Of a stretch of DNA of 64,000 bases, positions 29,441 through 64,000 are shown in pieces. This DNA is from Zygnema cylindricum (Eukaryota; Streptophyta; Zygnematophyceae; Zygnematales; Zygnemataceae): contig JBBHKE010000190.1 of assembly GCA_037447655.1 (NCBI GenBank), positions 62,001 to 126,000 of the forward strand, read 5' to 3'. The notes beneath the pieces are model-generated. The model searched no databases. It had not been told where the DNA came from and was given only the letters and a program-made list of their open reading frames with translations. Positions within the stretch are counted from its first letter, which is position 1; every line of letters begins with the position of its first letter. A program made the translations under genes and the position numbers.

Positions 29441-30223
29441 GTGTAGTGTATCGAGGAGGGTGTTCATTTTCAGTATTATATCGTATCCAATGCCGAAGCT
29501 TGTTATAAAAATCGGCTGACTCAGCTGTACCTTGGTAAAAATGTCGCTATCAAGATAGTCACCCGGACATAAAGTCCGTACAACTTTTGCGGTACGCTTC
29601 GCAATTTGCCCGTTAGAAATAAGATTTGTAACGCACGGCAGAATAACGATCGGACGGTCAGGAGCGTCTCCAAGCACCAGGTCGTCCAGGAATTCTAGTG
29701 TTTTGCCGTACAGTGGCGTATGTAGCGTATCGCGTAGTTTACAATTTACATTTACCGCTGATAATTATTTTCTCCGCACGTGTAAATTTGATCGTAGATA
29801 CGGAATTTTTCCAGGCCTGTGGTTGGTCCTCGCGACCATGCAATCCCGGGCGTCGTGCATCGCAAGCTGGATGTCGTACGACTGGTTTGTTTCCGTCGCA
29901 GGCGTCGCAACGTGGTTTTCCAGTTTCTGATGACTGATAACAAACACACTGTGGCAACATCAAAGAGAGGAGGTCTGAGATTTGCTCGTTTGAGACACGT
30001 GTCGGCCTCAGAATACTCGAGACGAGAAAACCCTTGTTGACATGCCATGTGTACAGACACTATTTGTCTACGGAGAAGCAGGTGCACTAATGGCTGCGGG
30101 ATTCTTATGATCCGTTAGTAGACGGAATAGGACAAATCCAGGAGAGAAGTGTACCAGTTTATTTAATTAATTAAAGAGATTTCTAGGGTTTTCTTGTGAG
30201 AAATACGGGGGGTGGGGACAGCC
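29441..30223. promoter_or_regulatory. Upstream region of the LysM-lysozyme gene
   Basis: Several overlapping ORFs occur on both strands at 29408-30087, but none resembles a known protein and their overlap suggests chance in a GC-richer promoter or 5' UTR. No TATA box can be assigned with confidence. Confidence 0.3.
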
Positions 30224-32824
30224 ATGGCTAGCTCCATCTGCCCTAAAGAAATTCTGGTAGAGGAGGGTGACACGCTCTGGACTTTAGGGCAAAAGCTGAA
30301 CGTTGATTGGTTAGAGCTTCAGGCTTGTAATGGTTTAAAAGATGACCTAATCTTCACTGGTGAGGTGCTGAAAGTTCCACAGATATCACGTGTTGCCACC
30401 TCCAAGCCGCACGTGCCAAGAACAACGCCTGCACTTTCCGTATCCAAAGCGCCGAAGCCAAAGAAGACAAAACCTATAGTGGTACAACCAGGAGATACAG
30501 CATGGGATATTGCGATAAAGTTTGGTTTAACCCTAGAAGAGTTGGAAGCCGTGAATGATTCCATCCCAGACCTAATTTATCCCGGAGACATCCTTTATTT
30601 GCCCGAAGATGCAGTGAAACGGCATCGAGCCTTCTCGTCACTCAAAGCTGTGAAGGCTAAGATAAAGGGCGTGTCTCCCAATGCACATTTCTTTGATGTG
30701 TTTCCTCCCGAGAAAAGTGAGTGAGCATCTTCGTTACAAATGTAATTTTGAATTAAAGATAACATTCTTCAAATAGCTGAATCTGTAAGCTAACATTCTG
30801 CATGTTTTCACTGAGAAATCTGATTTTCGTTCCTGTGCGTGACCTAGAGTTGTTCGAGGAAATTTGTCAAACTCGACTGCATAAATGTGTGTTGTTAAAT
30901 TGCTGCATTGCGTGATAGGTTGCCGTTTATTTCTGTCCATGATATGTTCACGAAAAGCAGTGATTTTAACTATGTGAGTTTTTTTTTGCAGATTTGGATG
31001 ATTATCGTGACAAGCATCGCGGTCTCCTTGACGCTATGCGTTTGGTTGAGACGAGCTTTATAATGCCAGCTCCTGTCGGGGATGATGGGTTAAGCATAGG
31101 GCCATTGCAAATTAGGTGAATTTCCTGGAATATGCCTCTTTTTTTTTGAATCTTGGCTCTGTGAGCTTGGCGTGTTATGAATTTATCCTAGTTCTTGCTT
31201 TTTGATTCCTGACTGGAAATGCTGTGGATGGCGGTTCTAGGATACCAGGCATGTTCTTGTTTTTGGCGAACGTTGGAAGGTTCTATCAATGTCGTTTTAA
31301 TGCCGGCTGTGGTATGGAGAATGTAATCATGTTTCATTGCGGATGTTGATATTCATTTGAAGTCAGAAATGCTCAATTAATGCAGGTTCGGCTTTTTGTG
31401 TTTTCCTGTTTAACCCCATTGAGAAATCTTTGCTTTCTTGGAGCGTTCTGTAGTCACGACTATCACACAGATGCCTGGTGGCTGGCGAACACTCCAGCCA
31501 TGTATGAGGATTGCGAGGATGTTGAATATTCGGAACGTACTGTCATCAATTACTGGCTCCGTTACTGTCCTTGGGCATTGGAGTTTGATGACTTGGAGAC
31601 TTTAGCGCGTATCCACAATGGAGGACCACGCTTTTGGCGGCACATAAAGACTGCTCGTTATTGGTAAGCTATATGCATTACACGTGGGCAAGTTTCCCGT
31701 CATACCCATGGGTTCGTCCGCTTAGATGATGTTTATGCATATTATCTGCAGTCACAAGAGAAAGCAAGGCATGGAGATCATTGCTAGGAAACCATCTCTT
31801 CCCATTGTGCTCCTATCGGTCGTCAATCTTGTCAATCGATTGCATATTTCTAACTCCCTCAAAGTTTTTGTCTGCGTTTCTTTTTTTTTTAATATTGCAC
31901 TTCTCTTGTCAATTAATAGCAATTTACACAGTTTGCCTTGCAGGTCACTTGTATAGTATTGTCTTGATGCCAATTTATCTTTTCCTTGCTGATGTTTGTG
32001 TGTATCGTATCGCCAGGAATCACATTTCATTGCTTTTATTAATCATGACTGAAGTGAGTTGATGAACGAGCATGCAACGAGGATTCTCAGAATGCTCACA
32101 ACATCTAGCGAAGGATGGTAGATTTTCGCTTGCCTCAGCAATACTTCCAACACAAATTACTTTATATGGACATTTACTGTTCTAACGAATGGACTCGTGA
32201 CAGCCACACGGAGGATGTTCTTGCTATGTCAATGAGTTTAATCGTTAACCTTGTAGAGGACATGTATACTGCAATGTGGTAAACGAGTATGAAAATACCA
32301 GGGGAAAGATCTGCAATGCGTATTCATATTTGAGTCTGGTTGATGGGCTTATGGGCGAATGGGCTCAAAGGAATTTTTTTTCCTTTTCTCTCACTTTAAT
32401 GGTGGGTTGCCTTATCGTACTATTCCGCGGATTGCTACTAGCGTTAGCAACACTAATTCGGTGGCGGTCCTTTTTTTTTGGCCACTTGGCATAAAATAAC
32501 ATAACTAATATTAATTGTTTGTTCTTTATATATATTTTTAAGCTAGTAGAGATTCACTGTGTAGCTTACACATGTTGTTTTGTGGTGCTCAGGAAGAAAG
32601 TGAGGAGCGCTATGAGGCAGTTTGGGTACTACAAGGGCATTCCAGAATTGAACCCGAATTTGTCGACAAACCGGCTTTCGTCCAATGGAATGTTCCCCAT
32701 ACTGCAGAAACACTTGACTTTAAGCCTCCCGTGGGTCGATCCTCAAGGTTGGAACTACGATGCCATTGATTATAACGCACTTCTGGAGTCGCTCGAGTCG
32801 CAGCCTTTACGCAAGAGAAGGTGA
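30224..32824 (+). CDS. LysM - invertebrate-type lysozyme (destabilase)-like fusion protein, four exons
   Basis: Exons 30224-30716, 30992-31115, 31454-31663 and 32593-32824 join in phase with GT-AG introns into 352 residues. The start ATG has a strong context (ACAGCCATGG). Two LysM domains (residues about 8-52 and 84-127, both with GDT-W cores) are joined by a Lys/Pro-rich linker and would bind N-acetylglucosamine polymers. Residues about 172-280 match destabilase-type lysozymes: VET (E184), DDG-LS-GPLQI (D195/D196), YHTDAWW, a YxxRY-type helix and ARIHNGGP. Glu and the Asp before GLS are the catalytic pair in that family. Most of the family's conserved cysteines are missing and there is no signal peptide. 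The last about 65 residues are unassigned. The stop overlaps a donor-like AG|GTGAGA, so a further exon is possible. Peptidoglycan or chitin breakdown is inferred. Confidence 0.85.
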
Positions 32825-41890: not shown

Positions 41891-42915
41891 TGAAACTCTG
41901 AGACCTCCATAAGTCCTCAGAGTGGACAGCTTCCAAGAAGCCTATAGGATAACCCTGACCCCTTTGTGTTTTAGCAAAGACAACTGCCACCCTGGCAGAC
42001 AATACCTCTGACCACCTTCACCCCTATAAAGGCAAGACTCCCTTGAGTCGATAGCAAAAAGAATCTCTGCATTTGTTCCCCTGAGCAAGAAGTTATGGAG
42101 GGTCAAAGTTGACCTTTTGTACAGAAGCTCTCTGGGAGAGAGGGTCCTATCTTCTAATTTTTCTAAGTCGTATCTCTCTCACAGACTCTATCTCCTGATG
42201 TACGGAGCGAATCAAATTACAGTTCCATACACAAAAGTACACCTACCGGTGTACTTTCTGTACGGACACTATACGACATGGCATAAATGTCGACACGTGG
42301 TATGTCCGGATTCACTCCCTTAATCCTCGGAGATGCCGCGATCCAATGTCGTTCCGCCACGTGTCATTCGATGTGCCGATGACCATAAACCGCCGAAATC
42401 CTCTTCCGCGATCTCGGCGTTAATTTCGGCCGTATGATTAAGTTCACATTTAATCGTAGCCGCAATAAATACATGCGCGGTATTGGTTTCTTATCCGTAC
42501 CGTAATCCGTACTTTTACATTACTGGATCTATGTCTTCTGTAAACAGTTTCAATTAAATGAACTATCCTACGTATAAATGTTTAATTAAGTATCAATCCA
42601 TATAATACGTAACACTAGTTAAAGACTTAACGGCTAAGGCTACCGGATACCGGCTGCCTGCCATCCGGTAGGTACCAGGATCAAATTTTGTGACCAGCAC
42701 ATATCCTTTTAGTAAAAAAACCCCTAACTAATATATATTTCTTGTAAACCTCTGGATAGCCTAGGTAGCCCTGGCTCTAGCTCCCTCTCCAATTTCTCAG
42801 TGACTGCGACAAGTTTGAGAGTTGGAGAGAGAAGTTAGAGGTAGACTACCTTGGCTTCTTTCTATATTTCTATTTAGACCTAGAAAATACTTTAAATGGA
42901 CCATTAATTTCTACA
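41891..42915 (-). repeat. 3' LTR of the outer Copia element
   Basis: 1,025 bp, beginning TGAAACTCTGAGACC and ending ...ATTTCTACA on the plus strand. It contains the tRNA-like module at about 42621-42696 (its T arm mutated to AAATTTTG) and the GTAC cluster near 42203-42280. It is clearly the partner of 51403-52426. Confidence 0.9.
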
Positions 42916-42964
42916 CTCCCCTTATTTTCTAGTCAATCTTTAATTTCACACCACACTTCTCCTA

Positions 42965-45604: not shown

Positions 45605-45805
45605 TGTTGAAATTTATGTATTTTCTAGGTCTGTATTGGAAAAATAAATAGAGTGTTGAAAAGAGATGACTAATAGTTCACTTCTATATTTCAGTTAGAA
45701 TGTAAAGAGAGAGAAAGAGAGGACCAAAGGCACGCCATGGTTGCCGCATCATTTAGAAGGAGATAGAATGAATTAGAAAGTATTTTACTAGTTTTAGCAA
45801 AATAC

Positions 45806-45872
45806 TGCCGCCGGCCGGATTTGAACCGGGGTCTGTAGGCAACTAAATAGACCAACGCCTTATCCATTAAGT
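45806..45872 (-). other. tRNA-like module in LTR U3 (Arg-tRNA-like), antisense to the element
   Basis: On the minus strand AATGGATAAGGCG (A-box and D-arm-like, 45868-45856), a GGTCT/AGACC stem with an enlarged loop, and the perfect Pol III B box GGTTCAAATCC (45827-45817) with a CCGG stem follow one another at tRNA spacing. AATGGATAAGGCG...TGGTCT resembles plant arginine tRNAs. The acceptor stem is not paired, so this is not a functional tRNA gene. Confidence 0.65.
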
Positions 45873-46174
45873 TTCTATCGAAACAATTCACGTAAGTCGT
45901 TTTACGCACATTTACCTATTGATTCAAAGGACTAATTCGCAGCAGACTAACGAAAACGCGCATTAATCAATTGATGCATGAAAGCGAATCGAAGCAGTAT
46001 AAATACAATTGATCGGACAACCACCATTACAGCCGCCACCCACAATAAGCTTTCGGCGGCCTTTGGGGATAGCGTCACGCGGTGCCACGTGGCGCCACAT
46101 TATTTGACACCGGAGAAGATGGGAGGAGGAACCATGGCTCCCGATTTGGCACATGTCACCTTGTAGACCATGTC

Positions 46175-46229
46175 GTACAATGGCCGTACAATAAGTACAT
46201 CGCCCATCGTACCTTCTTGTACTATATAG
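46175..46229 (+). promoter_or_regulatory. GTAC cluster and TATA box of the nested LTR
   Basis: GTAC occurs at 46175, 46186, 46195, 46209 and 46219, ending in ACTATATAG. GTAC is the core recognised by SBP-domain factors, including the algal copper-response regulator. The role here is a hypothesis. The same cluster in the right LTR is at about 49226-49273. Confidence 0.55.
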
Positions 46230-46698
46230 TGTTCCTATTGGACTAGGGTTTAGTAGTAGGTAGTCATGAGTAGGCAAACTAAGACTTAGTGATATTTCGG
46301 TTCTCTCTAAGAGAGCTTGTAACTATAAAGGTCATCTTTGACCAACCATAACTTAATGCTCGGGTGAGCAAATTCAGTGATTCTCTTTGCTGCCGACTCA
46401 GGGGAGTCTAGGCTACACAAGGGTGTAGTCGGTCAGAGTCTTTTCGTGCCAGGGTGGCACTTATTCAGTGGGAAAGTCAAAGTGGGGAATATTGTCCAAA
46501 ACACATATTCAAACTTTGCATTCTGTGGTGGAACTGAGCACACGGAAGGTCTTCTCTTCACAGAGGTGAAGGTGTATTAAGGTTCTAATTGTCAAGGGAT
46601 CATTCATTTGGGTTTATATCAACTTGGAGTCGGCACTATCTAGATTAGCTTCTTTTGGATCTACGAGTCCTATGGGCAATGGAGCCCATAGAATTTTA

Positions 46699-46713
46699 GG
46701 TTATGGGCCCACC
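46699..46713 (+). promoter_or_regulatory. Primer-binding site, half-tRNA(iMet) type
   Basis: GGTTATGGGCCCACC directly abuts the 5' LTR. It is complementary to the anticodon region of initiator tRNA-Met, as in Drosophila copia, where a 5' half-tRNA primes reverse transcription. An ATG (46703) inside this site opens the gag frame. The outer element has a degraded GGTTAT... at the equivalent place (51402 leftward). Confidence 0.75.
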
Positions 46714-46870
46714 ATCTAGGGTGCCTATGTTTGATGGAACAGACTTCACTTATTGGGAGTTTATTATAGAGGGATTGCTTTTCGAGAAGCACTTATGGGG
46801 AATTGTTTCGGGACAAGTGAGATGTCCGCCACCTGACTTTGGAGGAGGTTATTATGGAACCGGAGTTTAG
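46703..46870 (+). pseudogene. Gag N-terminal fragment of the nested element
   Basis: 55 codons beginning at the ATG within the primer-binding site: MGPPSRVPMFDGTDFTYWEF resembles the start of Copia Gag (xxFDGTNYxxW). It stops at TAG (46868-46870); the rest of gag continues in another frame from about 46903. Confidence 0.7.
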
Positions 46871-46902
46871 ATGAATCAAAAGGTGAAGGGAAAAACCATT
46901 CC

Positions 46903-48615
46903 GTGGATGGGGAAATAGGGGAGAAGGATAAAGGGACACTTATGGTGAGGGGAGCAATGCTCTACGTCTCATCTTCACTTAGAGGGGTTACAATTAAAAC
47001 TGAAGAAAATGATGGTAAAATTTGGGAGTATAAAATCACTATAGCAAAACATCTTGTACTTAGATATGTGTCTCAGTCCATAGCTATCACTCTTTTAAGT
47101 CTTACCAAGTCTTCAGAAATATGGGAAACTCTAAGGCAGATTTATAAGAGTGAGACTATTCAGAGGCAACAGTTAGTAAAACAGGAAATAGAGGCCTATG
47201 TTTATAAAGGCGGTAGCATGATAGAGTTTTGCAATGATATTGTTGCGTTATATGTTGAGCTAGCTAGTGCGGGATATGTAGAATATGAGGAGAGTAAGAT
47301 TAATACACTACTCATGAAACTCCGAGATGAGTACGAAAATATCATTTATCGTATGCAGGCAATGGATGGCTCCTCATGGACTTGGAGGTTTACCATGGGG
47401 ATAATTCTTGTGAGGGAAAGCACTTTGGAGCTTCGTAGGGGAAGTGAGAGGGTAACTGCCTTTACAGCTGGTGGTGATTGGCGGAAGCGTGATGAGAGGA
47501 ACGGTGGTGACGAGCGGAAGCTTGATGAGAGGAAGAAAGACGAAGGTAAACCTTATCGAAACTTTGGTGGAAAGAGAGGGAGAGGAAAAGTAAGGGGAGC
47601 TTTGGAAAAGGGTGTTTGCTTCTTTTGTAGAGAACCGGGTCACTATATGGAGGAGTGTCCTTGTTTGGAAGAACTTAGAAGTTGGAATATGAAAGAGGAG
47701 GAAGAAGGGGAAGAGGATGAAGAGGATGAAGAAATATTGGAGCTTCTTCACATCGGTAGAATGGAGAAGAGAGAGAAGTACACAGAAATTACACGAAAGC
47801 AACGATGTGCTTTTGGAGGTATAAGGGAAGTAATAGGAAGGGAGGTACTTGAGGGAGTTAGAAATGATGAGGATGTGAAAGAGTGTAAAACGTATGACTT
47901 AGAAATGAGAAAGTCAAATCTAGGATACATAAATGAAAAAGGGAAAAATAAAAATAATGAGGATAATTTTATAAATATTTTGGAAACAGAAAACTGGTTG
48001 GAAAGGGAGACTTCAACGAATTTTGAGGAAAGGGGAGAAGTAAAACTAGAGGGGGTTTTAAAGGATAGGGGAGAAATGAAATATTTAATGAAAAGTTTAG
48101 GGGAGGAGAAATACTTTTTGGGAATCATTATTGAAAGTGATAGTGGAAAGTACTCCATGGGAGAGAGTGAGGAAAGTTCAGAAAATGGGGTGAGTATCAT
48201 GGATAAAAATATGAGCTCGGAAGATGTAGATTTTATGAGGAACTTATTGGGGACTCTTGATATAACGATAAATATGGGGGTTAATGGTTTTCACATCACT
48301 AATGGGAGTGATAGCATTTATGAAGGTGTGCTTGTAAAAGGGTTAGCATCTGGGTGTTTGTCGTTGATTGGGGATGGGGCTGGTTTTTTGAATTGCAAGA
48401 GGGAAATCGGATTCTGTGTGGATGGAAAAGAGATGAGTGAGATAAAATCTTTTCTCGGATTTATGAAAAATGGCATGCAAAATAAAATTTGTGATGTAAT
48501 TATTATTTGGGTTCATCGAATACACTTCTTTAAATACAAGGGTATTCACTTAGAGTTTTATGAGGAGAAAAGAAAGAAGAAAAGGGAAAATGAAGAAAAA
48601 AAAGTTTGTGTTTAG
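46903..48615 (+). CDS. Gag plus relic pol ORF of the nested element (570 codons)
   Basis: The first about 240 residues are Copia-type Gag (EIWETLRQIYKSETIQRQQL, YVYKGGSMIEFCNDI, LLMKLRDEYENI), then a basic DERK-rich linker and one CCHC knuckle, CFFCREPGHYMEEC. After an acidic run come 300 residues with no protease or integrase. They hold echoes of RT (LGEEKYFLGIIIES, MSSEDVDFMRNL) and RNase H (MSEIKSFLGFM, GIHLEFYEEK) without the catalytic residues. The frame stays open for 1.7 kb. There is no ATG at the 5' end, because the natural start at 46703 is cut off by a stop and frame change, so expression would need read-through or an internal ATG (for example at 46942). Confidence 0.75.
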   Translation: MDGEIGEKDKGTLMVRGAMLYVSSSLRGVTIKTEENDGKIWEYKITIAKHLVLRYVSQSIAITLLSLTKSSEIWETLRQIYKSETIQRQQLVKQEIEAYVYKGGSMIEFCNDIVALYVELASAGYVEYEESKINTLLMKLRDEYENIIYRMQAMDGSSWTWRFTMGIILVRESTLELRRGSERVTAFTAGGDWRKRDERNGGDERKLDERKKDEGKPYRNFGGKRGRGKVRGALEKGVCFFCREPGHYMEECPCLEELRSWNMKEEEEGEEDEEDEEILELLHIGRMEKREKYTEITRKQRCAFGGIREVIGREVLEGVRNDEDVKECKTYDLEMRKSNLGYINEKGKNKNNEDNFINILETENWLERETSTNFEERGEVKLEGVLKDRGEMKYLMKSLGEEKYFLGIIIESDSGKYSMGESEESSENGVSIMDKNMSSEDVDFMRNLLGTLDITINMGVNGFHITNGSDSIYEGVLVKGLASGCLSLIGDGAGFLNCKREIGFCVDGKEMSEIKSFLGFMKNGMQNKICDVIIIWVHRIHFFKYKGIHLEFYEEKRKKKRENEEKKVCV

Positions 48616-48654
48616 TGGGAGTTGAAAAGAAATTAGACTAGAAAATAAGGGGAG

Positions 48655-49751
48655 TGTTGAAATTTATGTATTTTCTAGGTCTGTATTAGAAAAATAAATA
48701 GAGTGTTGAAAAGAGGTGACTAATAGTTCACTTCTATATTTTAGTTAGAATGTAAAGAGAGAGAAAGAGAGGACCAAAGGCACGCCATAGTTGCCGCATC
48801 ATTTAGAAGGAGGCAGAATGAATTAGAAAGTATTTTACTAGTTTTAGCAAAATACTGCCGCCGGCCGGATTTGAACCGAGGTCTGTAGGAAACTAAATAG
48901 ACCAACGCCTTATCCATTAAGTTACTATCGAAACTATACACGTGAGACATTTTACGCATATTTACCTATTGATTCAAAGGACTAATTCGCAGCAGACTAA
49001 CGAAAACACGCATTAATCAATTGATGCATGGAAGCGAATCGAAGCCGTATAAATACAATTGATCGGACAACCACCATTACAGCCGCCACCCACAATAAGC
49101 TTTCGGCGGCCTTTGGGGATAGCGTCACGCGGTGCCAGGTGGCGCCACATTATTTGACACCGGAGAAGATGGGAGGAGGAACCATGGCTCCCGATTTGGC
49201 ACATGTCACCTTGTAGACCATGTCGTACAATGGCCGTACAATAAGTACATCGCCCATCGTACCTTCTTGTACTATATAGTGTTCCTATTGGACTAGGGTT
49301 TAGTAGTAGGTAGTCATGAGTAGGCAGACTAAGACTTAGTGATATTTCGGTAACTCTCTCTAAGAGAGCTTGTAACTATAAAGGTCATCTTTGACCAGCC
49401 ATAACTTAATGCTCGGGTGAGCAAATTCAGTGATTCTCTTTGCTGCCGACTCAGGGGAGTCTAGGCTACACAAGGGTGTAGTCGGTCAGAGTCTTTTCGT
49501 GCCAGGGTGGCACTTATTCAGTGGGAAAGTCAAAGTGGGGAATATTGTCCAAAACACATATTCAAACTTTGCATTCTGTGGTGGAACTGAGCACACGGAA
49601 GGTCTTCTCTTCATAGGGGTGAAGGTGTATTAGGGTTCTAACTATCAAGGGATCATTCATTTGGGTTTATATCAACTTGGAGTCGGCACTACCTAGATTA
49701 GCTTCTTTTGGATATGCGAATTCTATGGGCAATGGAGCCCATAGAATTTCA
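48655..49751 (+). repeat. 3' LTR of the nested element
   Basis: 1,097 bp, TGTTGAAATTTATG...GAATTTCA. The antisense tRNA-like module is at 48856-48922 with its B box at 48867-48877. It differs from the 5' LTR by about 30 substitutions and one 3-bp indel. Confidence 0.9.
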
Positions 49752-51402: not shown

Positions 51403-52426
51403 TGAAACTATGAGACCTCCATAAGTCCTCAGAGTAGACAGCTTCCAAGAAGCCTCTAAGAAAACCCTGACCCCTTTGTGTTTCAGCAAAGACAACTGCC
51501 ACCCTGGCAAACAATAACTTTGACAACCTTCTTACTTGTAAAGGCAAGACTCCCTTGAGTGGATAGCAAAAATAATCTCTGAATTTACTTCCCTGAGCAG
51601 TAAGTTATGGAGGGTCAAAGTTGACCTTTTGTATAGAAGCTCTCTGGGAGAGAGGGTCCTATCTTCTAATTTTTCGAAGTCCTATCTCTCTCACAGACTC
51701 TATCTACTGATGTACGGAGTCAATCAGATTACAGTTCCGTATGCAAAAGTACAGTTGTCGGTGTACTTTCTGTACGGATACTGTACGACATGGCCTAAAT
51801 GTCGACACGTGGTATGTCCGGATTCTCTCCCTTAATCCTCGGAGATGCCGCGATCCAATGTCATTCCGCCACGTGTCATTCGATGCGGCGATGACCATAA
51901 ACCGGCGAAATCCTCTTCCGCGATCTCGGCGTTAAATCCGGTCGTTCGATTAAATTCACATTTAATCGTAGCCGTAATAAATACATGCGCGGTATTGGTT
52001 TCTTATCCGTACCGTAATCCGTACTTTTACATTACTGGATCTATGTCTCCTGTAAATAGTTTCAGTTAAATGAACTATCCTACGTATAAATGTTTAATTA
52101 AATATCAATCCATATACTACGTAACACTAGTTAAAGACTTAACGGCTAAGGCTACCGGATACCGGCTGCTTGCCGTCCGGTAGGTACCAGGATCAAATCC
52201 TGTGACCGACACATATCCTTTTAGTAAATAAACCGCTAACTAATATATATTTCCTGTAAACCTCTGGATAGCCTAGGAAGCCATGGCTCTAGCTCCCTCT
52301 CCAATTTCTCAGTGACTGCGACAAGTTTGAGAGTTGGAGAGAGAAGTTAGAGGTAGACTGCCTCAGCTTCTTTCTATATTTCTATTTAGACCTAGAAATA
52401 CTTTAAATGGACCATTAATTTCTACA
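51403..52426 (-). repeat. 5' LTR of the outer Copia element
   Basis: 1,024 bp, TGAAACTATGAG...ATTTCTACA on the plus strand. It has five GTAC motifs at 51712-51786 and the tRNA-like module at 52132-52208. A short inverted repeat (TCTAGCTCCCTCTCCAA / TTGGAGAGAGAAGTTAGA) lies near its U3 end. Confidence 0.9.
52132..52208 (+). other. tRNA-like module in the outer LTR, antisense to the element
   Basis: On the plus strand: ACTTAACGGCTAAGGC (A-box/D-arm-like), an ACCGGA/TCCGGT stem, then CAGGATCAAATCCTG, a perfect 5-bp T stem around a B-box-like GGATCAAATCC (one change from the GGTTCRANTCC consensus). The copy at 42621-42696 has a mutated T stem. Confidence 0.6.
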
Positions 52427-53352
52427 CGCAAATCACGCACGATATAAACTAACAAATACTACGTACGGTACGCATCAAACGATGTTGAAAAGTTAATAAA
52501 TTGCGTACCTTACTTTGTACCCGTACAATATTTTTACACTGACGTAGAGTGTCCGTCTATGTTCGTACATTTTAGGAATATTTTAGGGGATTTTTAGGGT
52601 TTTCAAGGTACATTGCCGTACACTCCATTATATTTCAGTACGGGCGCCATAGATATTCCGTACAATTAAAATTTTTTAGGGTACACTTTCATACAATTTC
52701 GTACATTTATGTTAGATTTTTGTACTGTTAAAGATTTATAAGGATTTTCAAAGATTATTTATAAGGATTTTCAAAGATTATGCTTTCTGTACTTTTTTGT
52801 ACATGGCCGTACAGTGAATTCTACACAAATTCTACGAAAAGTATATAATCAACAAATACTACGTAGTTTTCGTAAAAAAGTTGAAATCCGTACGAATTGG
52901 ACATCAACGCATCTATGGAGAAAATAACTCCTACCTTCACGCACGACACGTGTAAAGTACGAAAACCGCACGTATTGCTGTCAGCTGTCTTTGCACGTTT
53001 GGCGTTTCAAACAGAATCTGTAGTTTACGGTTAGGGACTTGTACGGTATCTATTTACGGTTTTATGATTCATAGAACAAGTACACTACTGTAATGTGACT
53101 CATACTTTGTGCGACATGTACGAATTGGTGACCTACATCGACAGTTGTACAGAAATAACAAACTTGCTTTGGCACAACCGTACAGTATTGTCATAAACTC
53201 ATAAAGTGTATAGTATTTTATGGTGTTTTGTATCGATAAACTTAGGGCACTTTCCCATGTAACTGAAACTTTAATCTTGTAACTTTATTTCTAGCGAAGA
53301 TTCTCTTCACAACTTTCAGAGCATTCCGATGTAAGCGCAAATAACTTGTTAC

Positions 53353-54177: not shown

Positions 54178-54287
54178 CTTGTTTTTTCAAAAAGTGACAA
54201 GAGTAGACATGTGTGAAACGTGTGACACGCAAACGGTACACAAAATGTCGCGAAACTTCCACTCGGCTTGAATTCCTGTCGAGCGTG

Positions 54288-54660
54288 CCAAAACACCGTG
54301 GTGTTTTGGCGAGATGTCCAAGGAGGTGTGCATGAGAAACTTGCAATTACCCCAAATGCTGAAGCCGCCGCCCGGATCTATGACAATGCCCTTCTCTGTC
54401 CCTTCCCCCCCCAAGGGTAGGCATAAGTATAATGAGGAATGGAGTAAAGAAAAAAAAGGACAGTACTGAAAAAGTACTCTGTACCCCCTGTCGAGCGTGC
54501 CCGAGAATCCCAAGGGAAAGGCCCACAGCCTGGAGTGGTTGGCCTCAGATTCCTGCAAAGAGCCCCCCCAAAATGCGAAAGGCTTCCAGAATAATGATCA
54601 TGCCCACCGCTGACCCCCCATCCTTCCCATAGATATGCATGCAAAGATAGGAGAGACACC
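54288..54660. repeat. Two diverged tandem copies of a roughly 190-bp unit
   Basis: CTGTCGAGCGTGCC occurs at about 54277 and 54487, and the sequence after each aligns loosely (CCAAATGCTGAAGCC versus CCAAAATGCGAAAGG). It lies beyond the 3' end of the Gypsy coding region and may be part of its LTR, but I could not define LTR ends. Confidence 0.35.
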
Positions 54661-54856
54661 TAAACCAGGAGTAAGAGTAAGTGCATGGGAAGGCGAAAAG
54701 AGCTCCCCTCCCCCTTCCTTTCCCATTTGGCTGAGGAAAGGGATTTGGGTTCTTGGTAATCAGGTCGGTGCCCTTATTTCCCCCCCTCTTAGTCAGCCTT
54801 GACTAAGAAAAAGAAATAATTACCCGCCCAATTCACAGTTCCCGCAGAACCATGGA

Positions 54857-55334
54857 CTAGGGGATGGAGAGCGTGATTCCCACGAGGAGGGGAGACATGC
54901 TGGATGCCAACACTGACCGCACTGATTGCAAACAAAGATGTCGTGCTGCGGGGAGGACTAGTTGCATAATGAAGAACAGGAAAGAGGATCTACAAAGTAA
55001 GTCAAGTGGAAAGTGGGTACGTCTTCCAATCCTCGGAGATGGCAAGGGGCCACATTGATCTGATTCTCTTTAATTCTTCGACCATCTTTCCCTTCCAAAG
55101 TCAGAACTACCTTGTTTGAGACTTCCACCACTTTCAAAATCACCCGCCCGGCAGAAATGTCAAGCGTGTCCTTTTTCTGTTGCATTCGATATACAAAGTC
55201 TCCTGGCATAAATCATCACTGTCTGGGCACATAATCCCCGTTCCGGCGCTGGGAATACCACAATTGATCCCTGTGTAGTGCCACCTATAAATTCTCCATG
55301 GCGAGAGGCATTTCTTGGTGGAAGATTTTGGCAC
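54857..55334 (-). pseudogene. Gypsy integrase C-terminal region
   Basis: GDFVYRMQQKKDTLDISAGRVILKV and VLTLEGKDGRRIKENQINVAPCHL resemble the SH3-like/GPY part that follows Gypsy integrase cores. Frame is lost near 54950 and the remainder is not recognised. Confidence 0.6.
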
Positions 55335-55343: not shown

Positions 55344-56347
55344 TCAGTTTTTCGACAGTCCCCTTGTTATCCATTTCCGAAAGACCACTACTTCGGCCGA
55401 GGCAGCCCCGGGCAGAATGGGATGTCGTTCGAATAAAATGAAGTAAGGCCTATACGAGTGGAGGGAAGCCTGTCTGCTGAATCTGTATCCCATGGCAATC
55501 CAAGGCACCATTTTTTCCTCCCAAGTCCTCTTCCACGGCATATTTCCGTAGTTAACGATTCACTGTCTGTACGCACCTTTCGGCCAAACCGTCGGCTTGA
55601 GGGTGGTCGCGACTGGTAAGTCGGCAATCCAAGGCACCATTTTGTCCCATTCTCCCAAGTCCTCTTCCACGACATATTTGCGTACTGATCGCTTCACTGT
55701 TTGTACGCACCTTTCGGCCAAACCGTCAGCTTGAGGGTGGTCCAGACTGGTAAGTCGATGGTCGATGAGGCATTTCTTCAAAATATTTGTAAATTCTTCA
55801 GCGAATTCTGATCCTGGTCTGTCAGAACCTCTGTCGGCGCTCCAAATTATGATTGGACCCTCTGCAAGAAAGCGTCAGCGATGGACTTGGACTTCTTTCG
55901 GGGCAGAACCACAAGCTCTATCCATTTTGAGAAATGTACAATCATGACCAAGATGAAACGATTCCCACGTTTGCTGGTCGGAAGAGGTCACAAAAGATAC
56001 AAAGACCACCGATAAAACATCCCCTGGATAGGAAGAGAATGCAGCTCATCCCCACCTTTTTTGACAAAGGAGGCCTTAACTCGATCGCAGGATGAGCAAG
56101 TCTGTACAATTCGGTTGACTTGGGCCCGGAACCCGTGCCACCAGTAAGAGCCTGTAACTAGGGAAGTGGTCCGCTTTTGCCCGAAGTGTCCACATTGCTT
56201 GTGGAGATTAGTAATCAGAGTTTCTCGATCTGATGGAGGAGGAACCACTTTCCTCGTACCGTCTAACCCTTTCCGTAGGAGAACACCTTGGTCCCATTCA
56301 TACGCCGCCATCTGGGTCTGAACTCGAGACAATTGAACTCCAGCCAA
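55344..56347 (-). pseudogene. Gypsy integrase: HHCC zinc finger and catalytic core
   Basis: The zinc finger reads HKQCGHFGQKRT...TCSSCDRVKASF, followed by the core in several frames and the late-core MVPWIAMGYRFSRQASLHSY. A tandem duplication of about 130 bp (55495-55622 and 55623-55757) repeats the segment that encodes the conserved Glu helix. Confidence 0.8.
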
Positions 56348-56431: not shown

Positions 56432-56960
56432 CTACCCCTCAACATCTACTGCAAAAGTGGACAATGCCCCCCCAGATGGAGGAAGCCAAATTAAGGCGAA
56501 GGATGCTCGAATGAGTCCCAAACTGATTTCCTGGTCTTTGTCATGCCGAGCCCCGGTGGAATCCAGTGTGGAAGGATCAGGGTTTCGGCTAAGTCCGTCG
56601 GCATTCCCATGGATTTCCCTTGCCCTGTGAACAATGTTGAAATCATATTCCTGCAGGATATGCACCCATCTGGCGAGTTTGCCGGTCAACTTACTATTCT
56701 CCATGATCCATTTCAAGGGTTGGTGGTCAATGATCAGTGTGAAATGGACCCCGTACAAATAAGGCCTGAAATGCTGGATGGCCCACACAGCTGCCAAAAG
56801 CTCCCCATGGTAATTGCTATAATTCCCCTCAGCTCGGTTGTTGCTCCGGCTGGCGTAAGCCACCACATACTCGGCTCCGGCGTCGTCAACTTGAGCCTAA
56901 ACCGCTCCCAATCCAAACCTACTCCAATCAGTGTAAAGAAGGAAAGGTCTCTGGTGATCA
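56432..56960 (-). pseudogene. Gypsy RNase H
   Basis: VAYASRSNNRAEGNYSNYHGE is the YASR...ExNY-x-x-xxxE signature, followed by AAVWAIQHFRPYLYG, LIIDHQPLKWI (catalytic Asp) and ARWVHILQEYDFNIVHRAR...NADGLSR. Confidence 0.88.
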
Positions 56961-57059
56961 CGCATCCGGAGCACTGGGTGCTACTTCAGGGCATCTTTCA
57001 AAAGCTGGAAAGCATTCTGCTGTTCCTCGGCCCACAACAATTCTTGATCTTTCCACAAT

Positions 57060-58060
57060 AGCTTTTTTAGGGGCTGGGCATGACTACTAAACTCAGGAAT
57101 AAACCTGGGATAGTACTTGGCCTGGCCGAGAAAGGTTTGCAAGGCGGAAATGTTCTACGGGGGAGGAAGAGCGTCAAAGGGCTGCAACCTTAACCATATG
57201 GGGACCCACTGTCCCGGGAGTCACCTCATGTCCGAGGTAAATATTTTTTTGCACCCCATAAATACCCTTACTCGGGTGACATTTCAAGCCCGCTGCTTGA
57301 AGGGCCCGGAGAACGATTTGGATATGCTCCAGGTGTTCTTCAAAGGTCTTAGAGATATTATCACATTGTCGATGTAACACCGGGCACAATCGATTCCTCA
57401 GAGCGCTTCGTCCATGGCCCGTTGGAACTTGGCAGGTGCATTCTTCAGTCTGATGGGCATATAAATCCACTCATAAAGTCTGGATTCGGTCCAGAATGTC
57501 GTTCTCTCCCGTTGTTTTGGTTCCATGGCAATATGGTGGAATCTATTCTTCATATCCAGTGTGGAGAAGATGGTGGCTCTGGCAAGAGAGTCGAAAATCT
57601 CTTCCGGAGTTGGCATTGGATAATGGTCATGAATGGTGGCCGTGTTCAGCATGCGGTAATCCCCATACATTTGGAAATCTACAGTTTTCCCAGATGAATC
57701 CTTCTTAGGAGGGAGAACTGTGGGGTAAGCCAACCCATGGAGTCCTGTGCTTTCCTGAACCAACACGGCGTCTACCAAAGTTTAGACCTTTGCGGTGATA
57801 AACTCCTTCTCCTTAAAGCTGAGAGGATATTGTTTTTGCCAAACAGTTGCGGTTTTGTCAATCAAGGCAACACGAAAGGTGATTCCTTTGTATATTCCGA
57901 CATCTGTTTCTGACCAGGAGAAAACCTGATTGTTCTTCGCCAAGAGTTCTGTTAGCTGTTCTTTCTGCTGAGGGTACAGCTGCTCCCCTAGAGTCGAGTC
58001 CATCTTTCCCGGCTCAACTACGTTCAGGCTTGCAGTAGTCTCCCCCACAGATGATGTCAA
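57060..58060 (-). pseudogene. Gypsy reverse transcriptase
   Basis: The domain runs from VFSWSETDVGIYKGITFRV and QKQYPLSFKEKEF through VLPPKKDSSGKTVDF, DYRMLNTATI, FSTLDMKNRFHHI (Asp) and MPIRLKNAPAKFQRAMDEAL to the active-site box at about 57378-57366. That box reads Y-I-D-N instead of Y-x-D-D, removing a catalytic Asp. A stop at about 57780 and frame changes split the domain. Confidence 0.88.
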
Positions 58061-58269
58061 ATTTTAGCCTAACCTGTGGATCCGCCTTTACTCCTCCAGA
58101 TAATACTTTACTGCTGACAACTTCCGCTAAGCTGTCCCTTTTTGAACTACCGTTCCCCTCCACTGAAAGAACTCTTGGGTGTATTTTTCTCCTTTGTCTC
58201 CCCCCCTCAAGCTGCAAAGTGGCTCGCATGGACAACAATTTTGGAGCTTGAAGGTAACTTCTGCGGGAA

Positions 58270-59235
58270 TCTGGAGAATGGAGACTAGAATATGCAAACG
58301 CGTGTTTTGTAACCCATGTAATGGCATTCAAATCCATGCTTTGCCCGATTAAGCTACACCTTTGCAGGTCTAAAATACCTGGTGCGGCCGTGGTTCCCGG
58401 ATGGAATTCCATGGCTTGTTCTCGTTCCGAAATTGATGGTGTCGTCCAAATTCCTGCCTTGCTGTCAAAAATCATCCCAGCTGCTCCTTTTCTGTAGGCG
58501 TGACTTTGAGGAAAAGAGACCAACGTGGGGAGGGCTCGGCGAGGAGATCCGAGTGTGTTGCATTTGAAGAAAGGAGGACGATCCGGTTTGGCTACAGGTG
58601 TGGCTATTCTCCCTTTCCCGAGTATTTGGTGTACTGATGTTTGGGGTTCGGGGTCTGTTTCTCCAACAGAGACCGGTGAAGCGGGATCATATTGGTCCAA
58701 TATGCCCGGAGTCTGTGTGCTCGAGATCCCATCTAAGTAGCGTCAAAAACCAAAGGAGCTCCTAAAGTCCGCGTTACTTGTTTCCAACTGTCTGCAACCT
58801 GTTTTCGTTTATCATCCTCGGGTGGATGTTCTCCAGGATGTACCCCACATGTGTGTTCTAGAGCTGCTGTATCCACGATATTAATTTAATGATTTGGTAG
58901 AAGGTGCCACTCCTGCGGTCTTGATGCCCTTTTCCTTGTCCTGCGAAGGAGTATCCCTGAGAAGGCCATCCTACCACAACCAGATCTATTCTACCCAGAT
59001 TTGCTAAATGGGGTGCCATAATGTTATCCACGTTCTTGGGAAGACTCCGGTGAGCTTTGGAAATAGAAGACACTGGAAACTGCTGAGGATATAGGCGGTG
59101 CAGCTGATAAAGGCGATGTTGGCTGACAGCTCGTGCTTCTGGTGAAATCTCTGCTGCTGTATATGACTCCACCCGATATCCTGCTTTCAAAACTGCTTCC
59201 TAATCGGAACTCAATCCTAGAAATAAAGATTAAAT
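58270..59235 (-). pseudogene. C5-cytosine DNA methyltransferase domain inside the Gypsy element
   Basis: Motif order matches C5-DNA methyltransferases. Motif I, SLFLGLSSD-EAVLKAGYRV, contains stops. AAEISPEAR follows, then IDLVVVGWPSQGYSFAGQGKG, where motif IV normally reads PCQ: codon 58962-58960 is TCT, so the catalytic Cys is Ser. Next come DRRSGTFYQIIKLI and the motif VI remnant YILEN. LVFDAT, a stop (58735-58733), GSRAHRLRAYWTN, SPRRALPTLVSF, then ISEREQAMEFHPGTT and CSLIGQSMDLNAI follow. It would methylate cytosine in DNA using S-adenosylmethionine, presumably the element's own copies. This copy is dead. It lies between the protease and RT, in the element's own orientation, so it is part of the polyprotein and not a host gene. 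Confidence 0.85.
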
Positions 59236-59399
59236 CCGAAGTCGGGTGTCGGGGATTGTTAATGACACCAATTGTCGATTGAAGTCCTTGTTACCAGTCT
59301 TGGTTGGGAAAACATTTGACCGGGTTGTCGAATCTATTTTCGGTGATAATAAGGCTGAGAAAGCCTGATCTACTCCCAGCCGGAGTTTTGCCACATGCA

Positions 59400-60662
59400 A
59401 TAATCTATTCATGTATTCCCCTTCCCATCGCTTGGAAATCGGAAATTGCTAGATGTCTCCTGCAATATCTGTTGAACTGTGGAACAACTCCGCCGGAGAG
59501 GTTGTAAAATACACTATGTAACAACGAGACACAGGAACATTGGTCTTCCCCCGGTTCCATAAATCCAAAGGAACCACAAGTTTGGTTCCTTCGAGATTTC
59601 CAGGGTCCTGAACTGTACATTGCTCTTTCCAAACACTTAAACTTATATTCACCCGGGTCCAAGTAGCCATCCCCAACAAGATTTCAAACTGATTCCCTAT
59701 ACCACTAAGAAAGGAAGTTCAATTTTTACCTTCTGTTCAGCATCATCGGAGAATTCAATGTTCATGGCTTTGATGATTCCATGGACTAGTTGATTGCCGC
59801 TGCTTAGTGTGCTTAAGCAGATGTTACTCGGGCAAATTTGAGGTCTGAGTTCCTCCGGCATTTTCTGCAATGCTGAAGTGGTGATAAGGTTTGGAAGTGC
59901 TCCGGTGTTGACCACAGCGTCTTCGTACCCACCCTTCCCATCAAGTTTGAAGTTGCTCGTCCGGTTCAGAATGAGCGCTATGGACAAGGTTTTGTAGTCC
60001 CTATCCACCATAGGGGTTTTAGGCTCTGCAAACAAATATACCGCCATGGGTGGTGTCGCCCGGTCGACTTTGTCCTTTCCAGAATGAATTTCTTCTCCCA
60101 AGGCCTGAATGAGGATATATTCGGGGAGATTATGGGAGGAAGCGAGGGTTTTGACATGAGTCAAGGCATATGGCATAAGGTGCCTGACTAGCATGACAGC
60201 AGGCTTTGAGGAAGGGAGTGGGGCTCTCGGGGATGAAGCCGGCGAATCTGGTTCTCGATCCTGTTCGTTCCCCTCCTTGTAATCACTTTCAGAGCCGAAA
60301 TCGGGCATTGGTGGAGTTTTGGGTGCCTCCTCGTCCGGACGTTCGGCCATGAACCGCTCAAACCAATCCTGAGTACTCTGTTTGCCCTCTTCCAGTGATT
60401 TCTTCTCCTGCGGTAGTGTCTCGCTCTTGTTATTTTCAAAACCGTGAGGCAATTTAGGTTTAGAAGGAAGAGGAGGAGGTTGAGTGGGCTTGATCTCAAG
60501 CCTTGTGTCACTATTCAATAGTACTGCATAGAGCATGAAAGATAAAGGCCCGGTGGCCTTCCGGTTGTGGTCCTTCTTATTCATTTTTTGCTTGTCTCTC
60601 CTCTGATCAGAGGTTGAGGAGCGGAGTTGTCTATGACCATCTTGTAATTCTGTGTCCTCCAT
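59400..60662 (-). pseudogene. Gypsy Gag/protease region
   Basis: The first 321 codons (60662-59697) start MEDTELQDGHRQLRSS and are Glu/Pro/Ser-rich with no CCHC knuckle. Near the end AVVNTGALPNLITTSALQKM is a retropepsin motif in which the catalytic Asp of D-T-G is Asn, and flap-like LSSGNQLVHGI follows. After a stop at 59697 the region continues in other frames (GMATWTRVNISL, LDLWNRG). Gag homology is inferred from position only. Confidence 0.7.
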
Positions 60663-60689
60663 TGGACTACAGAATACGTAAGCCTCTAG

Positions 60690-61682
60690 ATAGTGGTTAA
60701 CTAACCCACTTTAAGCCACGACCACTTCTGCCCAAGAAGGCAAACTGACAATTTGACTGCACCCCTGTACAGCCTGGACTCCCCTGAGTCCGTAGCAAAA
60801 AGAATCACTGAAAACGGCCAACCAGCCGATAAGTTATAGGGTGGCAAAGATGCCAATTTATACAAACTCTCAGAGAGAGGACTATCTACCTAAATTTTCC
60901 TAAGTCCTAGTTTTTCCTACTTCCCTCTCACAGCTCCTATCTACTGCCTGTACGAACCAATCACAAAACTGTATAGTACAAGAAATTACTACTGCCGATG
61001 TACTTTCTGTACGGCCTCTGTACGACACGGCCATTAAGTGGACGCGTGTCCACTTTCCACTCGTCCGTACGTTCCTCGGAATTCCCGCGACCGAATGATG
61101 TCTTCCCACGTGGCGCCAGGTCATGCCACGTCACTAAATGCCAAAATGACCATTCCGGGATTTCGGCGATGATGTGCGCCGTTAGATTTGACGTGAAATT
61201 CAATCTCGGCCATAATAAATACTTGCGCGATATTTGTTTCGCTTTCGAAACAAAATGCGCGATATCCATTTCAAACAAGTACAGTACTTCGTATTTCGTA
61301 GAACTGTATCTATGTGTGGCGTTAAGGGTTTCAGTTAAATGAATCTAGTACATTACAATAGTTTAAATAGTAATGAAACCCTATATCTCCTAACGGACTT
61401 CTACGACAGACTGGTTAGAGCTAACGGCTACGCCGCGCTTTGCCGGTCGGGGGTTCGAGTCCTGCCGGACTCAACCTTTTGTTGAGAGTGGCTTAACCCA
61501 CTCTTTAGTCCTTCCTATGGAGTTGAGGTAGCCATGGCTCCATTGCTCTCTCTCTCTCTCTTTCAGTGACTACAACAAGTATGGGGGCGAGAGAGAGAGA
61601 AGAGATAGAGGCAGGCTGCCTACATTTTCTTTTCTAATAAATTTAGACCTAGAAAATATATTAAAAACTACTTATTTCAACA
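60690..61682 (-). repeat. 3' LTR of the third Copia element
   Basis: The right end ...TTATTTCAACA (61682) is followed by the plus-strand form of a purine tract, CTCCCCTTATTTTCTAG, as in the other Copia elements. The left end is approximate (TGGTTAACT near 60697). GTAC occurs at 60950, 60976, 61000, 61009 and 61020, and the tRNA-like module is at 61401-61472. It belongs to a different LTR family from 51403-52426 but shares layout and scattered blocks. Confidence 0.75.
61401..61472 (+). other. tRNA-like module in the third Copia LTR, antisense to the element
   Basis: On the plus strand CTACGACAGACTGGTTAGAGC is followed, at tRNA spacing, by GGGGGTTCGAGTCCTGCC. The B box GGTTCGAGTCC (61452-61462) fits the consensus exactly and CGACAGACTGG is A-box-like. 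The D stem does not pair well, so a functional tRNA is unlikely. Confidence 0.65.
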
Positions 61683-64000
61683 CTCCCCTTATTTTCTAGT
61701 CAAATATTAATTTTTCTTTTAACCAGCATTTCTCTCGACAATATTTTAATTTAGGAGAAGGCACAGGTTTGGTCATCATGTCAGCCACCATTTCTTCATC
61801 AGGTCTATACACAAGATTTAAAATTTTATTTTCAACTTTTTCTCTTACGAAGCTTAATCTTATGTCCATATGTTTTGCTTTGAAATGATGTTTTGGATTG
61901 GCTGCGATTGCGATGCAGCTTGATTATCGCATAAGATTTCATGCACTCCTTCCTTCATATATCCCAGTTCTTGCAACAATGACTTCACCCACATTAGTTC
62001 TTTTACTGCAGAACAAGACGCCATATACTCAGCCTCCATAGTAGACAGCAACTACCTTTTGTTGCTTACTGCTCCAACAACAAGCTCCTTCCCCCACATA
62101 CAAAACATATCCAGAAGTGCATCTTCTCATAGGTGCATCCCCATAATTGGCATCAATCCAAGTGGTGATATCAGTGTGCTCCCCTCCCAAATGCAACTAT
62201 AATTCTCTGGTTCTAACCAGATATCTCATGACTCTCTTGGCTGCCTCCCAGTCTCTCTACCTAGGATCATTAAGACTCCTACTGAGTACTCCAACTGTTG
62301 CCGCTATGTCCGGCCTGGTACAGTTCATAAAATAAATTAAACTTCCTACGACCTGTCTATAAGGGATATACTTCATAAACTCTCTCTCCTCTGGACTCAT
62401 CTGATCATCTAAGATCATCACTCCTCTTTCTACACTCCCATCAATTATTTTTTTCAAGTCCATGGGAGTGGTACAACTGTTACCATTTTCCATATGGCAT
62501 TTTTCAAGCATATTACCTATTGTTTCTTTCTGAGTAAGTCTGATAATCTTCTTCCCCCTATCTCTCTCCATTTGGATCCCCAAAATATATTTTGCCTCCC
62601 CTAAATCCTTCATATCAAATCTGTCCCTAAGATCTTTCTTTAGCCTATTGATATTCTCCAAAGACTTACTTAACACAAGCAGATCATCCACATATATTGC
62701 AATAAAAATGACATCATTCTCATCTTCAAACATTTAGATAGAATGGTCAGAGCTGATCCGGATGTATCCCAGATCGGTGAGAAACTCATCTAGTTTCTTA
62801 TTCGACTGTCGAGGAGCCTGTTTCAGTCCATATAAGGACTTTATGAGCCTGCAGATTTTGCTCACTTCTCCTTCTTCCACAAACCCCTCGGGTTGCCTCA
62901 TAAAAATTTCTTCCTCTAACACACCATTAAAAAATGCAGTCTTAATGTCCATCTGGTATATTTCCATGTCTTCCGCTGCGGCCAGACTGAGGAGAATCCT
63001 TACCGATGGGAACCAAACAACTGGAGCAAAGGTCACCTCATAGTCAATCCCCTCTTTTTGGGTGAACCCCTTCGCTCCCAATCGAGCCTTATACCTCTCA
63101 ATTGTTATTTTCTGGGTTCAGTTTTAGTTTAAATACCCATTAACATCCAATAAGTTTTCGGTCTGGAGGGCAATCCGCTAGTTCCCAAGTATTTGCTTCC
63201 ATGATAGAATCCATCTCATCATTTATGGCTCTAATCCATCTTTCTTTCTCTAGACTATTCACTGCCTCTAAGTAAGACTGAGGCTCATCTAATGAGATAG
63301 CTTAGTTACCTTATGGGCAGCTTGTTTTTCATGTATCCTTTTGCTGCTCCTCCTTGCTTTCTCGAACTCCGAAGCTGGAATGGATGGAAGTCTTGGATTT
63401 CTTCTCACTGTCTCATCGGCTCCCCTGTCCATGGAAACCGGTTCTTGTCCCGCTTCTTCTATCTCCTCGAAGTCCATAGGAGTATGTGAGGTTTCTGGTG
63501 AGTCTCCTGTATCTTGGATCTCCCCTGAATCTGTAATCACGGTTTCATTCATGTCCCTTTCGGGAACGACCGAATTCTCATCACTTTCGGACTCAAATCT
63601 GATCCTTATCTTCTTTGTATATTTGAAGGGGTCAAATGACTTCCCTTCATCCATGACAACTAAGTGTTTGACCAGAATGATATCTTTCTTTGCTAAGTCA
63701 TAGACTCTATATCCCTTAACATCCTCATCATATCCCACAAAGTATCCAGGTTTTCCCTTAGCATCTAGTTTCCAGTTTTTCCTATCCGTGTCAAGACTGT
63801 AAACTTGGCTACCAAATACTTTAAGGTGTGAGATATCTGGTTTCCTTCCAACCCATATCTTTTAAGGTGTCACTCCCTTTACAGCTGAGGTAAGGACTCT
63901 ATTCTTGATGTAGTTGGCACAGTTCATTGCTTCTGCCCAAAATCTCTTTCTTATTTTCTTGTCAGCCAACATACTGCGTACACTATCTCCTAGTGTTCGA
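61683..64000 (-). mobile_element. Third Copia element, pol region, continues off the right edge
   Basis: Minus-strand pol: integrase C-terminal part (63738 to beyond 64000, VKGYRVYDLAKKDIILVKHL), RT (63081-62257, DIKTAFFNGVLEEEIFMRQP, RLIKSLYGLKQAPRQ, AIYVDDLLVLS) and RNase H (62051-61860, MEAEYMASCSAVKELMWVKSL). A stop codon at about 62734 interrupts the RT before YVDD, and the RNase H loses frame at AASQSQPIQN. Sequence similarity to the outer element at 41891-52426 is high at the protein level. Confidence 0.9.

Follow-up and report, generated by a model that had tools for sequence, protein, structure and literature searches.

DNA methylation normally silences retrotransposons, which raises the question of what is gained by elements in which selection maintains a methyltransferase. 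The window, a stretch of 64,000 nucleotides of Zygnema cylindricum DNA that was analysed as a whole, poses this question on its minus strand, where it carries what is almost certainly a defunct copy of a Gypsy-type retrotransposon that is present many times in the genome and has a DNMT3-type cytosine methyltransferase (DNMT) as a built-in pol domain. The element is a new family within a published but rare class of DNMT-bearing Gypsy-type elements. Its many copies and its relatives in the model liverwort Marchantia make the benefit of methylating testable.

A methyltransferase domain in a decayed Gypsy-type element

The initial annotation had proposed that a Gypsy-type element encodes a C5-methyltransferase of its own between protease and reverse transcriptase (RT), and this is borne out by a protease upstream and RT and RNase H downstream of the domain. 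The methyltransferase does lie at 58270-59235, where it had been placed, but that range was too narrow: the domain covers about 59280-58194 and the coding match of the copy runs over 59448-54823 on the minus strand, in the order DNMT, RT, RNase H, integrase, PHD finger. The features are as follows.

about 60757-61700, minus strand: LTR of an adjoining copia element, outside this element, truncating its 5' side
59697-60710, minus strand: aspartic protease open frame (337 aa), active site NTGA at 59909-59889 (DTGA in relatives)
59449-59451, minus strand: in-frame UAG (TAG CAA TTT) between protease and DNMT, candidate readthrough stop, retained in relatives
about 58194-59280, minus strand: DNMT3-type C5-methyltransferase domain, broken (frames -2, -1 and -3; stops; catalytic Cys to Ser)
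59229-59203, minus strand: motif I, SLFLGLSSD
58977-58936, minus strand: motif IV, GWPSQGYSFAG
within 58845-58819, minus strand: motif VI, ENI
58729-58691, minus strand: motif VIII, GSRAHRLRAYWTN
58544-58512, minus strand: motif IX, PRRALPTLVSF
58355-58329, minus strand: motif X, SLIGQSMDL
56630-57829, minus strand: Gypsy-type RT and RNase H with stops and one frame change (Pfam RVT_1 E 1.5e-10, RT_RNaseH E 9e-27; tblastn to L014)
55348-56254, minus strand: integrase (H2C2 zinc-binding part recognized by Pfam, core by alignment) containing an internal tandem duplication of 130 bp
54823-55017, minus strand: C-terminal PHD finger, degenerate (tblastn to the L014 C-terminus, 60%)
54277-54461, minus strand: terminal repeat segment B, ending ...GCTCGACA, single copy, 88.6% identical to segment B of L018

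The reference for these assignments was a better preserved copy in the same genome (L014) with an open frame of 1,520 aa, which aligns to 59448-54823 in six tblastn pieces distributed over three frames. Identity to L014 is 55-60% in the DNMT part and 77% in RT/RNase H and most of the integrase. The Ty3/Gypsy order protease, RT, RNase H, integrase is present, with the protease recognized by weak Pfam matches and its active site. The protease frame of the window copy matched no Pfam domain, and the corresponding frame of L014 gave Asp_protease_2 at E 2e-4 and 22.3 bits, below the cutoff of 24.3. At the place of the PHD finger, Pfam found this domain in another copy, L023 (E 1.5e-9), and below cutoff in L014 (E 0.004).

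The methyltransferase motifs quoted in the initial annotation are present on the minus strand in the order I, IV, VI, VIII, IX and X between 59229 and 58329. A 113-aa piece (EAVLK..WIQQL, ~59199-58861) matched the DNA_methylase profile PF00145 with 26.6 bits (cutoff 22, E 5e-6) in an alignment spanning just 53 residues around motif IV. The DNMT pieces past motif IV in the window copy gave no Pfam match, and the motifs other than IV were identified via the alignment to L014.

The decay comprises stops, frameshifts, the 130-bp duplication in the integrase, the replacement of the catalytic Cys by Ser and that of the protease Asp by Asn. The suggestion that the element might disguise itself as silenced chromatin or tune its copy number does not apply to the window copy, which can do neither because it is broken and has Ser at the catalytic position. 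The copy is also cut at its 5' side, as the copia LTR starts at ~60757. The stretch at 60.76-61.7 kb had been considered as the element's own 5' LTR and was rejected, being this copia LTR.

Copies in the host genome and purifying selection

The host genome (352.8 Mb in 2,689 contigs) was searched for further copies. PF00145 was found at at least 123 places (the best 123 of 782 candidates scored), at least one of which is a host gene. With the 1.1-kb DNMT segment of the window, at least 44 rows at 40 places were obtained, the window itself included (best 40 of 584 candidates). The 20 best Pfam places were fetched for locus analysis; 19 carry a DNMT of this element type, 15 have RT downstream and one is a host gene exon. 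The copies fall into three families: A, which is window-like, B, with DNMTs 54-58% identical to those of A, and C, with 38-42% identity. Intact copies had been named as the thing to look for, and better preserved ones with the DNMT ahead of RT were indeed present: both the 1,520-aa frame of L014 and a 2,395-aa frame in L023 encode DNMT, RT, RNase H and integrase plus PHD, the PHD being sub-cutoff in L014. Part of the insertions are recent: the two terminal A repeats of L023 show no difference over 931 bp, and L023 shares 99.9% identity with L024 across 7.4 kb. Of the relatives listed, the 11 closest to the window copy all retain the catalytic Cys and 10 have RT downstream; none of the 11 has a DNMT domain free of stops and frame changes.

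Selection was estimated from dN/dS. For the family A DNMT the median was 0.25 over 45 pairs (40 defined; three identical, two saturated), as compared with 0.27 over 28 pairs for the family A RT, and the seven defined pairs with the diverged copy L020 gave 0.07-0.10. Values for the family B DNMT were 0.12, 0.21 and 1.95, the last from a pair with few changes (L011/L019), and those for family C were 0.06-0.12. The DNMT is under purifying selection about as strict as that on RT, as measured on well preserved copies, since the 20 loci are the best Pfam matches.

These data bear on the possibility of a chance capture, in which a single fragment of a host DNMT gene would lie inside a single Gypsy copy. 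The window copy is broken, and the raw window alone would permit this reading, which the initial annotation had itself named as the alternative. At least 39 other places match the DNMT segment, with 82-91% identity except for one 69% fragment among the matches listed, and the domain sits at the same place in many copies with a fixed spacing to RT. Together with the presence of three diverged families within a single genome, of homologues in further green plants and of purifying selection on the DNMT, this already refutes chance capture, to which we assign practically no probability.

Not every related element need carry the domain. At least 36 of 104 RT places have a DNMT within 2.5 kb upstream (best 104 of 4,421 RT candidates scored), as counted against 163 DNMT places, namely the 123 (best of 782) and the 40 (best of 584); the second piece of one RT place and four extra DNMT fragments were left out. 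Sister elements without DNMT may exist in this genome. As a separate observation, a Gypsy RT (96% identical) at G000:C961:71281-72480 belongs to an open frame that was given as 5,743 aa long.

Among 12 near copies, C-to-T differences occurred at 0.104 in CG, 0.091 in CHG and 0.041 in CHH contexts, and the ratio to other changes differed little (CG 1.91, CHG 2.11, CHH 1.56); this context pattern would be a weak sign of past methylation. Observed/expected CpG was 0.62 for the window copy, 0.65 for a host-gene stretch, 0.63-0.64 for family A and 0.89-0.94 for family C, and does not discriminate. The host gene exon mentioned above, first taken as an element (L015, the same locus as L007), was rejected as such; it lies at L007:1501-1749 and is of the chromomethylase/DNMT1 type. 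Its nearest PDB entries are 9mvy, 7ubu and 4fsx, labelled DNA (cytosine-5)-methyltransferase 1, of which 4fsx is presumably the maize chromomethylase ZMET2. This exon and the slightly raised C-to-T differences at CHG would point to a streptophyte host.

A conserved UAG codon ahead of the methyltransferase

Families A and B share a layout in which a protease frame is followed by UAG and a DNMT frame, which in A continues to RT, RNase H, integrase and PHD. The TAG was found at all 16 distinct readable junctions: 12 of 12 in a first set (9 of 21 rows unreadable) and 5 of 5 in a second (7 of 12 unreadable), one of the latter five being the window copy again. Family C has a single frame in which the stop is absent (2,395 aa in L023); its protease gave a sub-cutoff match in L024 only.

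From its conservation we infer that the UAG is a candidate readthrough stop. Against readthrough, the sequence found here, UAG-CAA-UUY, differs by one base from CARYYA, the motif used by plant viruses. The codon might instead reflect decay, a change from CAG to TAG being a likely deamination and other TAG stops being present in many copies, or it might be reassigned. We consider this improbable: the same codon is TAG at all readable junctions across two families with DNMTs as diverged as 54-58% identity, and it directly precedes the unbroken 1,520-aa frame. Moreover, neither this frame nor the one of 2,395 aa contains an in-frame TAG, so TAG is hardly decoded as an amino acid.

Split terminal repeats

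The relatives have split direct repeats in the arrangement A1-ORF-B1-A2-B2. This is most complete in L023, where A1 (931 bp) lies at the left, followed by the coding part, B1, two bases, A2 and B2, with 100% identity of A1 and A2 over 931 bp and 99.6% of B1 and B2 over 243 bp. The split repeats end in TG...CA, and L023 in TGTC...GACA. Its flanks have TTGG in common, a possible 4-bp target duplication that is not clear at L022. A1/A2 identity is 91.4% in L022 (full pair) and 83% in L010, and L021 has a partial pair; the stretches retrieved for L018 and L024 contained no recognizable A1. What looked like an A1/A2 repeat in L013 proved to be a copia LTR and was rejected. A single B forms the end of L014, of L027 and of the window copy; the window copy has no A segment, and no A2-B2 follows its B (3' end 54277).

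Two like LTRs at the ends, as in Ty3/Gypsy elements, were thus not found, and a standard LTR element is excluded by the split repeats of the relatives despite the Gypsy-type pol. The elements also differ from the DIRS/PAT type, which has a tyrosine recombinase and no DDE integrase: no tyrosine recombinase occurred among the Pfam matches of L023 and L014, and both have an rve integrase. DIRS-like repeats combined with Gypsy domains are seen in L023, L022, L010 and partly L021.

The methyltransferase is of the DNMT3 type

A profile built from 15 DNMT domains of these elements was closest to DNMT3A (E 1e-26), followed by DNMT3B. Weaker matches were the 4onj entry 'DNA methyltransferase' (1e-13), which we take to be the tobacco DRM, DRM2 (4e-10), M.HhaI (2e-9) and DNMT2 (7e-7). 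The motif order I-X is canonical and not rearranged as in DRM, and an AlphaFold model of the element DNMT was confident (pLDDT 88.4, pTM 0.87). Judged by these comparisons, the element enzyme is DNMT3-like. The catalytic Cys of DNMT3 is present in the relatives and replaced by Ser in the window copy.

Residues were counted in 51 aligned domains, which came from proteins of relatives and from two host copies retained by length filters. The catalytic Cys was found in 48 of 49 domains with a letter at that position, the ENV Glu in 50 of 50 and the motif VIII Arg in 51 of 51. In protein P0013 Tyr replaces the catalytic Cys, which counts against the explanation that we favor below. The domain might no longer methylate DNA and be retained as a module for nucleic acid binding or RNA methylation. 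This reading could draw on motif IV, in which the residue preceding the catalytic Cys is Glu (ECQ) in 32, Pro (PCQ) in 14 and Ser in 2 of 48 relatives, and on the Gypsy DNMT of Klebsormidium nitens, which according to the text of PMC5890265 gave no methylation in yeast, a result that its authors call inconclusive. Binding alone would not need the near-invariant catalytic Cys, ENV and motif VIII arginine, and loss of DNA methylation is in our view unlikely.

Relatives in other organisms

The DNMT search returned 43 proteins, among them ones from Marchantia, Closterium and K. nitens; Cymbomonas was one of three matches of a separate search. The RT search returned 2,624 proteins, of which the best 120 were analysed. 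Our own profile found a DNMT in the same protein in 41 of these 120 listed relatives. There are two main DNMT slots. The slot before RT is used in K. nitens, Closterium, Marchantia and the Zygnema host, and that between RNase H and integrase in Haematococcus, many metagenome proteins and, by eye, Cymbomonas. Six rows without a visible RNase H were placed in the second slot because integrase comes after the DNMT.

The RT tree (FastTree) contained 131 rows; 32 of 161 proteins had been left out because their RT-RNase H span was missing or odd. All 59 DNMT-bearing rows fell in one clade of 108 of the 131 (support 99), and 27 rows with the DNMT after RNase H fell in a sub-clade of 28 (support 99). 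As many as 52 of the 131 rows begin too close to RT for a DNMT to be scored, and three long rows inside the DNMT clade show none. The DNMT tree had 49 rows, P0043 and P0046 being left out, and rooting with DNMT3A was useless (branch 3.6). Here the rows with the DNMT after RNase H grouped together with the DNMT-only protein P0001 (support 99), and those with the DNMT before RT did not form one group. When six distant or short rows were removed, Cymbomonas included, 12 DNMT-before-RT rows and nine gag-DNMT rows made up one side of the tree (99). RT and DNMT distances were correlated with r 0.50 (51 rows), 0.67 (27 DNMT-RT rows) and 0.44 (24 RNaseH-DNMT rows), each exceeded in 0 of 2000 permutations, and with r 0.47 after thinning to 12 rows (40 of 2000).

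The clustering of the slots on both the RT and the DNMT tree favors inheritance of the DNMT with the element over repeated new capture; the origin may have been one capture with relocation, or two captures. On a larger scale, we consider it about an even call that DNMT-bearing Gypsy-type elements constitute an old green plant and algal lineage including Marchantia, in which the DNMT was gained once or twice, was inherited with RT, is often joined by a PHD finger, which puts a histone reader beside the DNA methylation writer in a single polyprotein, and is made by readthrough in some families, with DIRS-like repeats, ends like those of DDE-integrase elements and an adenine methylase in the same slot of a more distant lineage.

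Comparison with published elements

The initial annotation referred to reports of such elements in charophytes and dinoflagellates, and this was correct, as seen in the main text of de Mendoza et al. 2018 (PMC5890265). Their KnitGypsy-Dnmt3 of K. nitens is a DNMT-bearing Gypsy element which, according to that text, shares with the present elements the Gypsy domains, an unrearranged DNMT3-like domain inside pol and purifying selection, and according to the Fig. 4 legend also a DIRS-like repeat structure. The main text on KnitGypsy-Dnmt3 does not mention a UAG junction, a PHD finger, TG...CA ends or a two-base B1-A2 junction. The same text describes SymbioDIRS-Dnmt3 and SymbioLINE-Dnmt of Symbiodinium, likewise retrotransposons with a built-in cytosine DNMT; these are DIRS elements (with tyrosine recombinase) and LINEs rather than Gypsy elements, and the authors find them unrelated to the Gypsy case. 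SymbioDIRS-Dnmt3 is DNMT3-type and CG-active, and in yeast the Symbiodinium DIRS DNMTs show de novo methylation of CG (PMC5890265).

The K. nitens protein KFL_009030040 (P0038) resembles the Zygnema elements in having the DNMT ahead of RT and groups with them in the RT clade (support 99), but identity in the DNMT is 42% over 72% of its length, and no PHD is seen in this partial protein. Related DNMTs with PF00145 occur in Marchantia polymorpha (Mp_2g26090, Mp_4g09160) and Closterium NIES-53/54, and by similarity only in Haematococcus lacustris (QJQ45_002440) and Cymbomonas (CYMTET_55966). Mp_2g26090 and the proteins of Closterium and Haematococcus also contain RT, whereas in Mp_4g09160, of 1,278 aa, RT is absent and the DNMT lies close to the end. 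The Haematococcus protein differs in carrying the DNMT between RNase H and integrase, where it was detected with our own profile (E 1e-38) and gave no Pfam match; that of Cymbomonas has an RNase H-like stretch ahead of the DNMT, by eye only. Two further Gypsy polyproteins, P0150 and P0154, carry Dam (PF05869, an N6-adenine methylase) and a PHD finger. Dam of P0150 lies between protease and RT, which is the DNMT slot, but both proteins differ in target base and enzyme family, have RTs outside the DNMT clade and bear the PHD ahead of the integrase.

The spread to Marchantia and chlorophytes, the pairing with PHD and the UAG junction were not found in the main texts of the open-licence literature. 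Given this spread, the capture described in print as an event in K. nitens seems to be older or more mobile, and DNMT-bearing elements seem not to have disappeared with land plants.

Proposed function

The explanation that we favor as a whole, and consider somewhat probable, combines a built-in pol DNMT, its synthesis as a readthrough product, self-methylation of the cDNA and PHD-guided integration. The first frames would yield gag-protease, and occasional readthrough of the UAG would give a longer product, by which DNMT, RT, RNase H, integrase and PHD would enter the particle together. Before integration or during it, the DNMT would methylate the element's own cDNA at CG sites, and the PHD finger would couple integration to a histone state. 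A copy arriving methylated might resemble host-marked DNA or gain protection against damage or sensing, at the cost of later silencing. Anatomy, conservation and selection are observed in this scheme, and the activity is taken over from the DIRS enzymes of Symbiodinium. The failure of the K. nitens enzyme, the nearest published one, to methylate in yeast counts against it. Self-methylation of the cDNA is the likeliest role, proposed tentatively and at slightly less than an even chance.

The DNMT might instead act on host chromatin at the insertion site or near it, with the integrase and PHD docking on nucleosomes and the DNMT marking the surroundings, which would bias landing and silencing. 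DNMT3 enzymes do act on chromatin, and a PHD finger encoded together with the DNMT in one polyprotein would fit this role; by BLAST it occurs in 62 of the 120 listed RT relatives and in 18 of the 41 with DNMT. Several DNMT-bearing relatives, e.g. those of Closterium and K. nitens, have no PHD in the protein at hand, and we regard action on host chromatin as doubtful.

Other features of the window

Several further features lie outside the element. LTRs at 45605-46696 and 48655-49749 (96.9% identical) flank an insert at 45605-49749 with a 592-aa plus-strand frame (46837-48615) that has a CCHC-like stretch by eye and no visible RT; it looks like a non-autonomous gag-only element. It has inserted into a copia element on the minus strand, whose LTR-like repeats lie at 41891-42916 and 51403-52427 (93%). 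Minus-strand frames at 146-2681 and 21371-24450, with Pfam RVT_1 matches at 791-1537 and 23140-24057, are probably two copies of one non-LTR retroelement. Finally, a 174-aa frame on the plus strand (30200-30724) contains two LysM domains by Pfam and is probably a host gene.
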